DNA from: Nannobrachium achirus | Lineage: Eukaryota; Chordata; Actinopteri; Myctophiformes; Myctophidae | DNA length: 64,000 nucleotides | NCBI GenBank assembly: GCA_963921795.1 | Contig: OY997647.1 | Span: forward strand, 63,592,083-63,656,082 | Reading direction: 5' to 3' | In this document: in pieces, positions 8,132 through 47,479 of the stretch | Numbering within the stretch: position 1 is the first letter of the stretch | How the letters are laid out: each line of letters begins with the position of its first letter | Notes under the pieces: generated by a model | Databases searched by the model: none | Seen by the model: only the letters and a program-made list of their open reading frames with translations | What the model was told of the DNA's origin: nothing | Position numbers and translations under genes: made by a program

Positions 8132-9956
8132 GTGTCAGTCCACAGGAGGTTCTAAAGGTTTATAAGGTCGGTTTGAACCGTCTTGATCGTGTGACATACG
8201 TCACTGAAGTGCCCTCCCTCAGTAGCATCTACACAGAGCTCTACATCTCAGCGGGAGAGAGTGAAGGGGTTAATACCCAACATGAGGTCTGGCAGCTTGA
8301 GAAAACTTCCAAGAAGAAGACCCTCCATGACCAACCAATCAAATGCTGTGACATCTTTAGGCCCCTCCTCCTTGGCAGAGACAAACCCATCAGAAGAGTT
8401 CTGACCAAGGGCATCGCTGGCATTGGAAAAACATTCTCTGTGCGCAAGTTCACTCTGGACTGGGCAAGGGGTTTGGAAAATCAAGATGTCATTCTCCTGG
8501 TTCCCTTCTCATTCCGGGAGCTGAACTTGGTCAGAAATGAGCAGCACAGTCTTCTCTCACTGATCCACCGTTTCCACCCAGAATTAAAGAAGGTCACAGC
8601 AGAGCAGCTCGCTGTCTGGAAGGTTGGCTTCATCTTTGATGGTCTGGATGAAAGCAGGTTTTCGCTGAAATTCGAGAATATTCGCATTGGTTCCCATGTC
8701 TTCCAAGAGAATGACATTGTTTCTGATGTCACAGTGACATCATCAGTGGACTTGCTGTTGACAAACCTCATCGAGGGGAATCTGCTCCCCTCAGCCCTCC
8801 TCTGGATAACCACCAGACCTGCAGCAGCCAATCAGATCCCTCCTGATTGTGTTGATTTGGAGACAGAAGTACGAGGGTTCACAGACCTCCAGAAGGAGGA
8901 GTTCTTCAGGAAGAGATTCAGTGATGAGAAGCTGGCAAGCAAAATCATCTCACACATGAAGACATCAAAGAGCCTCCACATCATGTGTCACATCCCAGTC
9001 TTCTGTTCGATCACCGCTACCGTTCTGGAGGAAATGTTGAAGACAGACGAGACAGAACAGCTGCCCACGACCCAGACTCAGATGTACAGCCACTTCCTGT
9101 TGGTCCAGACAAAGAGGAAGTGGAAGAAATATGTTGAGAGTCATGATGTGAATCAACAGCAGCTCATGGAGAAGGACAGGGAGGTTCTTCTGAAGCTGGG
9201 CAGGCTGGCGTTTGAACATCTGGAGAAAGGCAGTGTCATGTTCTACCAAGAAGACCTGGAAGAGTGTGGCCTTGATGTGAAAGAAGCCTCGCTGTACTCA
9301 GGAGTGTGCACAGAGATCTTCAAAGAAGAGACTGTTCAATCTGAGAGAAAGGTCTACAGCTTTGTTCATCTGAGCATCCAGGAGTTTATGGCTGCAGTCT
9401 ACCTGTTCCACTGTTTCACACAGAAGAACATGAAGGTACTGGAGTCATTTCTGCAAGAAGAAGAAGAAGAAGAAGAAGAAGAAGAAGAAGAAGAAGAAGA
9501 CATTACTCTGGAAGACTTCCTGTACAGAGTCATGGTAAAATCACAGGAGAGTCAAAATGGCCACCTGGACCTCTTTGTCCGCTTCCTTCATGGCCTCTTA
9601 CTGGAGTCCAATCAGAGTCTGTTGGGAGGCCTACTGGTTCAGAAAGAGAACCGTTCAGAGACCATCCAGAGAGTCATCAACAACCTGAAGGAGATGACCA
9701 CTGAAGATCACTCTCCTGAGAGAATGATCAACATCTTCCACTGTTTGATGGAAATGAACGACCAGTCGGTACTTCAGGAGATTCAACAGTATCTGAAGTC
9801 AGGGGACAGTTTGTCTCCATCCCAGTGTTCAGCTCTGGCCGCCATGCTGCTGATGTCAGAGGAGGTTCTGGATGAGTTGGACCTGGACAAATACAACACA
9901 TCAGAGGAGGGGCGACGGAGACTGATCCCTGCTGTGAGGAACTGCAGAAAGGCTCG
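8132..9956 (+). CDS. FISNA-NACHT exon of an NLRC3-like fish NLR (module A)
   Basis: This 1,825-bp exon opens after 'ctcatagcag' and ends CG|gttagt, leaving phase 2. Residues 1 to about 75 match the FISNA region ([15 protein letters not shown], then IKCCDIF). NACHT ATPase follows, with Walker A GIAGIGKT at residues 93-100 and Walker B FIFDGLDE at about 166-173. The motif [14 protein letters not shown] marks the winged-helix/superhelical part. The C-terminal region ends [14 protein letters not shown]. The family consists of cytoplasmic innate immune sensors that use nucleotide-dependent oligomerisation; the ligand cannot be told from sequence. A run of 14 glutamates from a GAA repeat is unique to this copy. 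A second AG three bases upstream (8128) could add one residue. Frame and domain order are complete. The usual exon continues into LRR exons, as it does here. Confidence 0.95.
9457..9498 (+). repeat. (GAA)14 microsatellite coding for polyglutamate
   Basis: Fourteen GAA codons in frame within the FISNA-NACHT exon, between FLQ and DITLEDF. Modules B-D have an unrelated sequence ([11 protein letters not shown] or similar) at this position. Confidence 0.97.
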
Positions 9957-10068
9957 GTTAGTAGTCATGTGAATAGAAACATCCTAGAGTCAATCTGTCA
10001 TTACAGTTAACACTATAATTAGAAACTATGTTTGTTAAAAAAAAAAAATAATGCTGTTTATGCAATGG

Positions 10069-11270
10069 CAGTGTTGGGAAAGTTCACTTTCTACACTAGT
10101 TAAAATTCAAGTTCACAACTTCTAAAATGAACTAGTTCAGTTCATAGTTCATAATTCCACATTTTGAACTAATTCATGGTTCCCCACAATGAACTAACTT
10201 AGTTATTTTTTTATTTTTTTGATGTCGCTTGACGGCCCATATAGAACCACACACAGCAATTATTTCATCCAATTTAATATTGAGCTGCCCACAATGTTTA
10301 GGTTCCCACTCTTCCTGCACTATTATTGTGAAGGTAGAGGTTTCTTACTGTCACATATCCTGCATGTTTCCACTTGTTTCCAAATGGTTAAAATAGCAAG
10401 TTGACAACGTCTCATGGATGCGATGAGTTGTGAGCTTGCAGATCAGCTATTTTAGGCAGGCAACACACGTCAAAAGACAAAGTATAAGTCAGGCTTTACT
10501 TGGGAGACATAATATGTCTCCCAATCGCCTCATATTATGAGGCGATGCACACACAGTGCTTCAACTTGAATGCAAAGAAAGACCAGACGACGGGCCGCGT
10601 GAACGAGCTGACGAGTGCCGTTTACGGATGTCAGAATGAACGCGTTCGACAATAACGTTCACCCAGAGGAAATAAAGAACGTTCAGATCACATTCGCCCA
10701 AAATAGGAATGGAAGAGTGCGGTGGCGCAGTCGGTATTGCTGTTGCCTCACAGCTAGAAGGTCCTGGGTTCGATTCCCGCCGGGGGACGCTGTGGGCGCT
10801 GTGGGTGTGTTCCCTCCTCCGTGTCATCAGCGCCCACACCCTAGGTGGGGTTGGCAATAGGGCCTTTCTGTGTGGAGTTTGCATGTTCTCCACGTGTCTC
10901 CTAGGGTAGATACCCTCACAAAAACATGCAGTAATCCTGGTCTCTATACTGCCTCCCCCTGGCCAGCCGGATGGAGGGGAAAGGAACTGGTTGGAATAAC
11001 GTGTTCGTTCCATGCAGGTCCAACCGGGGAAGCTCCCCCCTTTCAGGTGAAAAGAAGCAGCCTGTTCACTCCTCATGCACTGAAGGAAGCATGAGCTCAG
11101 TTCGGGGCCCTCCCCAGGCTTGGTAGTGGGAGAGCAGAGCCCATTAGGCAATTGGCACTGGGTGAAAAAATGGGTTACAAAATTGTGGGATAAAATTTTA
11201 AAAAATTAAATAAAAAATAGGAACGAGTTCATGAACGATCGTTCATTGAACACGTTCAGGCACATCACTG
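10069..11270. mobile_element. hAT-like non-autonomous element carrying a nested SINE
   Basis: The left end CAGTGTTGGGAAAGTTCAC and right end (complement CAGTGATGTGCCTGAACG) are hAT-type CAGTG termini. Both subterminal parts are filled with 'gaactagttca / gttcatgaacgatcgttc' motifs. No clear 8-bp target duplication was found, so the edges are approximate. No transposase remains. Confidence 0.55.
10710..11213 (+). mobile_element. tRNA-derived SINE inside the hAT-like element
   Basis: The head has Pol III promoter boxes: A-box-like 'ggcgcagtcggta' and B box 'ggttcgattcc'. The body 'tgtgtggagtttgcatgttc' is common to fish tRNA SINEs. The A-rich tail ends in 'aaaaaattaaataaaa'. A 10-bp target duplication AAAATAGGAA flanks it (10,700-10,709 and 11,214-11,223). 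It is therefore a whole retroposed copy, younger than the hAT-like host element. Confidence 0.88.
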
Positions 11271-11397
11271 GTGACTGGTGGTATTTTGTGTACGTACAAA
11301 GTCTTCAATAAAGCAGGGTAAATAATAAAAAGACGCAATTCAGGGAAATTGCAAGTGTGGTTGCTGTGAATCTGCTGTGAAATGAATTCCGTCTTAT

Positions 11398-46358: not shown

Positions 46359-46751
46359 TCATAGAGCGTCATTTGGTCACTGGGTGCCAGACTAGGGTGC
46401 GAGGACCCCCATCCGCCCGCTTCACCCACAGGGGTCAAAATAGCAGACATACAAGCTCACAGCAATATTTTCATCCCATTCTAAAAATGTCTTCCAAATC
46501 AGTGCATCTCAAACTGTTTCATGTCAAGGACCCCCAAAATGACACACGTTTGAACGTGGACCCCCATCTCAAAATATCTTGTTCCAGTCACAAATGTTCG
46601 CTTTCAAAAATATGTATTCAAATAAGAAATAGCAGACCTACAAGTTTGCAGCGCGGCACTCGGTACCGCGCTGTGATCTTGTAGATCTGCTATTTTTCAT
46701 TAGGCCTCGTTAAACCATAAAATAATGGTTAAAGTGCTTCCAGGTCTTATT
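46359..46751. repeat. end of the repeat array before the SPRY exon
   Basis: A degraded monomer, then a 'gtcaaggacccccaaaat' block (also at 44,495 and 47,934), then a palindromic element at 46,627-46,699 ('atagcagacctacaag' and 'cttgtagatctgctat'). Confidence 0.7.
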
Positions 46752-46862
46752 TTGTGTGTGTGTGTGTGTGTGTGTGTGTGTGTGTGTGTGTGTGTGTGTG
46801 TGTGTGTGTGTGTGTGTGTGTGTGTGTGTGTGTGTGTGTGTGTGTGTGTGTGTGTGTGTGTG
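46752..46862. repeat. (GT)n microsatellite before the SPRY exon
   Basis: About 55 GT units ending some 57 bp before the acceptor. Same relative place as the tracts before exons B and D. Confidence 0.97.
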
Positions 46863-46919
46863 TTGTGTGTCAGTCAGTGAATGATGTATTTAATGTTTAC
46901 TGTGTTGTTTTCTCATCAG

Positions 46920-47479
46920 ATTTCCAGCGTCTCACTCTGGACACAAACACAGCACACTGGACCCTCTCTCTGTCTGATAACAACAGAAAGGTGACACGGG
47001 GACAGGATCAATCATATCCTAAACATGCTGACAGGTTTGATGTATGGGCTCAGTTTCTGTGTACAGAGGGTCTGACTGGACGCTGTTACTGGGAGGTAGA
47101 GTGCAGTGGAGGGGTTGAGATAGCAGTGACTTATAGAGGAATCAGCAGGAAAGGAGGTGGTGTTGACTGTGGGCTTGGACGCAATAACATGTCCTGGAGT
47201 CTGGTCTGTGATGGTCTTAGTGGTAACAGTTACAGTGTCATACACAATAATAAGCAGACTGTCCTCCCTGTCAGGGCCTCTAGGGGCTCCAACAGAGTAG
47301 CAGTGTTTGTGGACTGTCCTGCTGGGACTCTGTCCTTCTACACAGTGTCCTCTGACTCCCTGGCACACCTCTATACCTTTCGCAACACTTTCACTGAACC
47401 TCTCTATGCTGGGTTCTGTTTATACTGGTCCCCCTCCCCCTCCTCCACCCCCTCAGTGTGTCTGTGTGAGCAGAGATAG
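46920..47479 (+). CDS. terminal PRY/SPRY (B30.2) exon of the NLR
   Basis: Acceptor 'gttttctcatcag', phase 1 in, 560 bp to a TAG at 47,477. With the T of the VKHGG exon it reads YFQRLTLDTNTAHWTLSLSD. The PRY part then runs through RKVTRGQ to a YWEVE motif. The SPRY core follows, with AVTYRGISRKG, NNMSWSLVCDG, FVDCPAGTLSFYTVSS and LYAGFCLYW, ending in VCLCEQR. It is the whole usual length of a fish NLR B30.2 domain (about 187 residues). In this family B30.2 is thought to bind protein ligands and is often under diversifying selection. No other SPRY copy exists in the window, although the three NACHT-C exons begin with its first bases. Confidence 0.95.

Follow-up and report, generated by a model that had tools for sequence, protein, structure and literature searches.

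Structure of the Locus

The stretch of DNA analyzed here (the window; 64,000 nucleotides, nt) comes from contig OY997647.1 (C10) of the myctophid fish Nannobrachium achirus, where it covers C10:63.592-63.656 Mb of a 1.66-Gb genome; exon positions are given in window coordinates. It holds an NLR gene, modeled with 19 exons on the plus strand from 8,132 to 47,479, in which a unit A is followed by three extra cassettes (B, C, and D) and a B30.2 exon. Unit A consists of a FISNA-NACHT-WH-HD2 exon, two LRR exons, a short LRR exon, and a VKHGG exon, and each extra cassette is made up of an HD2 exon, one or two LRR exons, a short LRR exon, and a 50-nt VKHGG exon. The HD2 exons of the cassettes carry the acceptor of a B30.2 exon and are referred to below as chimeric exons. 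The exons, with the TG tracts at some of their acceptors, are as follows.

8132..9956 (+): FISNA-NACHT-WH-HD2 exon of unit A, with Walker A GIAGIGKT
12943..13116 (+): LRR exon A1, 174 nt
15400..15576 (+): LRR exon A2, 177 nt
16826..16957 (+): short LRR exon A, 132 nt
21528..21577 (+): VKHGG exon A, 50 nt
24829..24870 (+): TG tract at the acceptor of chimeric exon B, 42 nt
24945..25467 (+): chimeric B30.2-acceptor/HD2 exon of cassette B, 523 nt
26408..26584 (+): LRR exon B, 177 nt
27175..27306 (+): short LRR exon B, 132 nt
30548..30597 (+): VKHGG exon B, 50 nt
32003..32534 (+): chimeric B30.2-acceptor/HD2 exon of cassette C, 532 nt, without a TG tract in the upstream 250 nt
33652..33828 (+): LRR exon C1, 177 nt
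35099..35275 (+): LRR exon C2, 177 nt
35870..36001 (+): short LRR exon C, 132 nt
37223..37272 (+): VKHGG exon C, 50 nt
38807..38947 (+): TG tract at the acceptor of chimeric exon D
38962..39475 (+): chimeric B30.2-acceptor/HD2 exon of cassette D, 514 nt, its 5′ end 9 nt shorter
41264..41440 (+): LRR exon D, 177 nt
42541..42693 (+): final short LRR exon D, of a different type, 153 nt
43677..43726 (+): VKHGG exon D, 50 nt, of the divergent type WIKPELLKR
46753..46870 (+): TG tract at the B30.2 acceptor
46920..47479 (+): PRY-SPRY (B30.2) exon, including the stop codon

The exons of the window gene have AG acceptors and GT donors, and the last closes with a stop codon. Joined, the 19 exons amount to 5,762 nt, or 1,919 codons and a stop. 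A sequence-only reading of this DNA had placed the extra HD2 exons at 24,945, 32,003, and 38,962 and the SPRY exon at 46,920; recomputation agrees with these starts, with the cassette lengths claimed (882, 1,068, and 894 nt for B, C, and D, all divisible by three), and with the spacing (7,058 nt from HD2 exon B to C, 6,959 nt from C to D, and 7,958 nt from D to SPRY). That reading also held that the exons are open and in matching phase, such that any cassette can be kept or skipped, and all eight keep/skip subsets of B, C, and D indeed stay open through to the final stop. Its proposal that the locus can encode one ATPase with repeated HD2/LRR blocks is borne out by the 1,919 codons and by the recurrence of the same exon type, with frames and splice sites intact, in 17 genes. 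The locus is real, as the single-gene description had it, but the window gene belongs to a family of 17 genes, its cassettes B and C combine A-like and D-like parts, and the TG tracts had been overlooked.

Domain calls are matches above the Pfam cut-offs; a few weaker matches fell below them. The first large exon matches FISNA (67.9 bits), NACHT (84 bits), NOD2_WH (74.6 bits), and NLRC4_HD2 (101.1 bits) over window positions 8134-9972, and the last exon matches PRY and SPRY. In the three extra large exons, only NLRC4_HD2 is matched, from profile position 35-37 to 121, and the exon content is HD2 minus its beginning plus the first part of the LRRs. The label "NACHT-C" given earlier to these exons does not describe the exon, which is a B30.2/HD2 fusion. 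For the large exon, the best PDB match is NLRP3; a PDB search with the chimeric-exon alignment gave no matches at E ≤ 0.001, and an NCBIfam search gave no relevant match. A coding (GAA)n run at window 9456-9501, likely a length-variable microsatellite, encodes a long glutamate stretch in the HD2 of the large exon.

Relation to Known NLR Families

For NLR-C group 3, the key published with the round goby genome names the Walker A motif GIAGIGKT, a large exon ending in L(IP/TA)AV(R/S)NC(RK/TR/RR)A, and the lack of a PYD (PMC6988351, accessible part). By this key, the window gene is a fish NLR-C (NLR-B30.2) gene of group 3: GIAGIGKT and a large-exon end of the group 3 type are both present, as is B30.2. 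Pfam matches show a FISNA-NACHT fusion that shares its large exon with WH and HD2, and the C-terminal exon with PRY and SPRY matches follows a short exon (50 nt, 43,677-43,726). Repeated HD2/LRR blocks, present here, go unmentioned in the accessible part of the round goby paper.

In zebrafish, the NLR-B30.2 genes have a common exon-intron structure, with a single last LRR before B30.2 in groups 1, 2a, and 3, as far as the available text goes (PMC4852459). The two systems are alike in the FISNA-NACHT-WH-HD2 large exon, the two types of LRR exon, and the fixed last LRR before B30.2. Unlike in those genes, HD2, the short LRR, and the pre-B30.2 exon each occur four times behind one NACHT in the window gene. 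Instead of being confined to the large exon, HD2 is found in three more exons of the window and in 26 across the genome, and, where the last LRR before B30.2 should be present once, a short LRR with a VKHGG exon after it occurs four times, the final one being of a different type. A conserved 47-bp exon ahead of B30.2 is also described for zebrafish (PMC11192531, in part). The 50-nt VKHGG exon occupies the same place, a likeness of position; in contrast to the zebrafish exon, it is repeated and is a possible donor both to chimeric HD2 exons and to B30.2.

A known system of skippable, frame-preserving LRR exons, in the part of its description available, is similarly modular; here, the putative modules would be whole HD2-LRR-linker cassettes. 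No description of repeated HD2/LRR cassettes in fish NLRs was found in a literature search that covered open texts, in part, with most subscription papers outside it. What appears to be new is thus a layout of NLR-C with repeated in-frame sensor cassettes; the NLR-C family itself is known.

Origin of the Chimeric Exon

The splice acceptor and first codons of the chimeric exon, together with the upstream intron end, match those of the five B30.2 exons compared, and the remainder matches the HD2 part of a NACHT exon. Depending on the copy, the intron end shared with B30.2 exons extends over about 10 to about 60 bases and is longest in copy L019. An exact 24-nt B30.2 acceptor occurs at 45 sites in the genome (30 listed B30.2 exons, 14 chimeric exons, and one B30.2 exon on C12 identified by reading), with 0 sites for the reversed control; the 12 other chimeric exons deviate from this exact pattern. 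On the NACHT side, a junction pattern allowing up to two mismatches is found at 27 sites, again with 0 sites in the reversed control; 26 of them are the chimeric exons, and the other lies in an ordinary NACHT exon at C10:6.8366 Mb. The 26 chimeric exons have one fusion junction in common, in two forms 9 nt apart, and therefore appear to descend from one event and not from repeated decay.

The ordinary NACHT exon at C10:6.8366 Mb (L053, minus strand) is interrupted by an apparent insertion of about 6 kb, and an HD2 piece roughly 6 kb further on (L035, C10:6.8300 Mb, minus strand) is taken as the rest of it. Among the HD2 parts of seven NACHT exons, L035 comes closest to the chimeric exons, with a mean nucleotide identity of 0.911 vs. 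0.789-0.856, and the chimeric exons form a joint clade with this 6.83-Mb HD2 at a support of 1.0. On account of these two results, the HD2 half most likely derives from the 6.83-Mb NACHT lineage. In a genome search with the Pfam HD2 profile, most of the best matches listed fall within frames as long as a NACHT exon, and a few within shorter frames.

Recurrence Across the Genome

A protein search of the genome was made with exon B, and 150 of 549 candidates were scored. The top 26 matches, at 85-100% identity, are chimeric exons; they are followed by L035 (80%, one stop) and then by HD2 within NACHT exons (78% or lower). All 26 are open and have both acceptor and donor, and their lengths (487-538 nt) fall into eight classes, each 1 mod 3. 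Grouped by hand among the NACHT and B30.2 matches listed, they belong to 17 genes, of which ten have one chimeric exon, five have two, and two have three. Twelve of these genes lie in C10:62.98-64.21 Mb, three in C10:6.79-6.98 Mb on the minus strand, one on C15, and one on C23. With 26 copies of the chimeric exon spread over 17 genes, the cassette arrangement is beyond chance.

The surroundings of the chimeric exons recur as well. An upstream NACHT exon is found in all 17 genes, in one of them interrupted, and, among the matches listed, a downstream B30.2 exon lies within 20 kb in 15 of the 17. A VKHGG exon precedes at least 24 of the 26 chimeric exons by 0.8-7 kb among the matches listed, the remaining two being those at 63.0797 and 63.4453 Mb; for one VKHGG form, 16 of 17 sites precede a chimeric exon. 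Three genes were read from NACHT to B30.2 (the window gene and those at 64.09 and 62.98 Mb) and three in part, at 63.79 Mb (no B30.2 exon), 63.175 Mb (without the NACHT part), and 6.88 Mb (NACHT end only; last short LRR not found). A neighbor in the same cluster, at 63.2885 Mb, has the canonical order NACHT-LRR-LRR-short LRR-VKHGG-B30.2 and zero chimeric exons. The second gene with three cassettes spans C10:63.792-63.837 Mb (L049, L041, L042, L048, and L054).

Multiplication of the Cassettes

The mosaic cassettes B and C each have a D-like 5′ half and an A-like 3′ half. In the 3′ halves, B and C are 94.5-95.4% identical to unit A in the short-LRR region and 91.3-95.7% in the VKHGG flanks, vs. 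only short matches to D (111 nt at 75.7%; 144-151 nt). The stretch past the chimeric exons aligns with D in both cassettes, at 94.9% for B and 84.4% for C. The LRR regions can be aligned among all units of the window gene. From the A/D mosaic structure, we infer that B and C arose when the LRR regions of A and D underwent unequal crossing-over with each other.

TG Tracts at the Acceptors

Tracts were scored as TG/CG of at least 20 nt (pure TG runs of at least 26 nt) within 250 nt before an acceptor. They precede 24 of the 26 chimeric acceptors in the genome. In the six genes read, they stand before 10/12 chimeric and 5/5 B30.2 acceptors, vs. 0/53 pattern-found acceptors of LRR, short-LRR, and VKHGG exons. 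In the window gene, the tracts measure 42 nt (B), 94 nt (D), and 111 nt (B30.2).

UG repeats near splice sites are sites of TDP-43, which promotes skipping or inclusion of exons, as described in the accessible part of PMC3985631. A UG repeat of six or more units close to the 3′ splice site, a feature of TDP-43-regulated exons, is found here at 24 of the 26 chimeric acceptors and at the five B30.2 acceptors read, but not at cassette C of the window gene. The TG tracts are a candidate splicing switch, although a tract may simply have been inherited along with the B30.2 acceptor. The case resembles that of CFTR exon 9, as far as the available text describes it (PMC3985631), in the long UG tract near a 3′ splice site; it differs from it in that the likeness here is one of sequence.

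Possible Selection on the Chimeric Exons

On the tree of the 26 chimeric exons, about 241 substitutions are estimated, and there are no stops vs. the 9-10 expected neutrally (P 5e-5 to 1e-4). All seven internal gaps listed are multiples of three, compared with 14 of 32 in the adjacent intron, the latter being a hand count of the alignment listing. The ratio of nonsynonymous to synonymous substitution rates (dN/dS; NG86), which the sequence-only reading had proposed to determine, is 1.31 for the 26 chimeric exons, 1.34 for the set of 13 short-LRR exons, and 0.59 for the NACHT-to-WH part of seven exons. A codon bootstrap gave a pN/pS of 1.38 (0.84-2.53) for the chimeric exons under equal rates and 1.77 (1.09-3.24) under a kappa of 2.47. 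In a binomial test, p was 0.054 for an assumed neutral fraction of 0.77 and 0.0008 for a fraction of 0.723 (kappa 2.5).

Purifying selection, considered as proof of cassette function, was rejected because the dN/dS of 1.31 is not below 1; constraint rests instead on the zero stops and the frame-preserving gaps. The chimeric exons are not neutral debris and may be under diversifying selection. Open frames combined with rapid change fit diversifying selection on a sensor, bearing in mind that the bootstrap intervals are wide and that gene conversion may distort these estimates.

Interpretation and Alternatives

The window gene is probably an NLR-C group-3 receptor gene that carries several copies of the sensor half (HD2-LRR-linker) after one NACHT ATPase and encodes one long protein. 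In the proposed course of events, recombination would have placed the first codons of a B30.2 exon, with their 3′ splice site, in front of the HD2 part from a relative of the 6.83-Mb NACHT exon, yielding a new exon that could accept splicing in phase from any upstream VKHGG exon. The HD2-LRR-short LRR-VKHGG cassette would then have spread, and unequal crossing-over between LRR regions would have multiplied its copies. The putative transcript would encode FISNA-NACHT-WH-HD2-LRR, one to three further HD2-LRR arms, and B30.2 in a single long protein. Since the chimeric and B30.2 exons have a common acceptor type and phase, each VKHGG donor could be joined to either a cassette or B30.2, and the window gene could give rise to up to eight whole-cassette isoforms with differing sensor arms on one switch. 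In NLRP3, an LRR-like/HD2 segment alters the response in an agonist-specific manner (PMC7479093, in part); by analogy, extra HD2-LRR arms could widen or tune the responses of one NACHT switch.

Several observations weigh against the multiplied-sensor reading. An initiating exon 5′ of 8,132 was not found, searches for the known type of N-terminal peptide and for motifs being unconvincing, and in the chimeric exon the first part of the HD2 profile is missing. Among the matches listed, the gene on C23 has no B30.2 exon within 50 kb (the nearest is at 52 kb), and no B30.2 exon was found in the 16.5 kb past the last VKHGG exon of the three-cassette gene at 63.793 Mb. One of the 17 genes, at 6.83 Mb, is probably dead because its NACHT exon is interrupted by an insertion. 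In the tree that joins the chimeric exons to the 6.83-Mb HD2, their own clade has a low support of 0.212. To these can be added the dN/dS not below 1 and the absence of a TG tract within 250 nt upstream of cassette C.

The cassettes might be spliceable but mostly skipped, the functional product being an ordinary NACHT-LRR-B30.2 protein and the extra exons tolerated passengers. This is unlikely, even if every cassette can be skipped without a frame shift, TG tracts of the kind bound by TDP-43 stand before 24 of the 26 chimeric acceptors, and dN/dS is around or above 1: all 26 exons are open with frame-preserving gaps where 9-10 stops would be expected neutrally, and the tracts stand equally before the five B30.2 exons read, which are presumably used. 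The intact frames and splice sites of all 26 exons argue against the view that the cassettes are debris of once complete tandem NLR genes that lost their NACHT and B30.2 exons. Related NLR genes do stand densely arrayed in the cluster, and one cassette gene contains a broken NACHT exon; however, a fusion junction common to all 26, in two forms 9 nt apart, points to one event, and the search with up to two mismatches gave no independent junctions (more diverged ones would escape it). We regard this origin as very unlikely.

Each chimeric exon has an ATG close to its 5′ end, encoding the M of NMKVLE or NMKILE, which would suit the idea that each cassette is an independent transcription unit, either a separate short gene or the product of an alternative promoter. 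However, a 3′ splice site and an intron end of the B30.2 type stand at the head of the chimeric exon, and in 15 of the 17 genes NACHT, the cassettes, and B30.2 follow one another in this order on the same strand. Independent units are likewise very unlikely. Least probable of all is an assembly artefact with collapsed or expanded repeats. Tandem repeats of 90-95% identity are difficult to assemble, but the window cassettes are about 5-16% apart over long stretches, and the 17 genes with chimeric exons are spread over three contigs, most of these exons having distinct sequences.

A bolder form of the multiplied-sensor reading would make these genes a combinatorial receptor system, with one ATPase switch and a menu of fast-diverging, interchangeable HD2-LRR arms. 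UG tracts of variable length and of the TDP-43 type, duplicated together with the B30.2 splice site, would govern which arms are included. Individuals would differ in cassette number through unequal crossing-over, and the isoform ratios would be tuned by the length of the UG tracts. In this full form, the proposal is speculative and quite unlikely to hold; if true, changes in germline repeats would suffice to rewire the repertoire of sensors.

The family of the window gene violates the rule, stated for NLR-B30.2 genes of zebrafish, that all have one layout. From the sequence, it further provides an account of the birth of a new exon, out of a B30.2 acceptor and HD2, and of its subsequent multiplication. 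If expressed, the genes would represent a vertebrate immune receptor that varies the count of whole sensor arms per NLR switch. Genes with 0, 1, 2, and 3 cassettes in one cluster provide natural controls for isoforms, copy-number variation, and function.

Other Features of the Window and the Genome

Tandem repeats of about 1.5 kb lie at window 17728-20891, 49.7-51.7 kb, and 57.8-64.0 kb, and also in the intron between short LRR exon A and VKHGG exon A. A sub-repeat of 43-45 nt within them holds an inverted repeat (GGCTCGCC..GGCGAGC). Upstream of the NACHT exon, at window 5557-7013, there is a 44-nt minisatellite with 33 copies. A head-to-tail duplication of 1,127 nt at window 51945-54198 has an identity of 99.9% and is either very recent or an effect of the assembly. 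Elsewhere in the genome, at C24:3864869 (G000) and C10:10851416, NACHT and HD2 matches lie in open frames of 2,296 and 2,205 amino acids, compared with the usual 600-odd.

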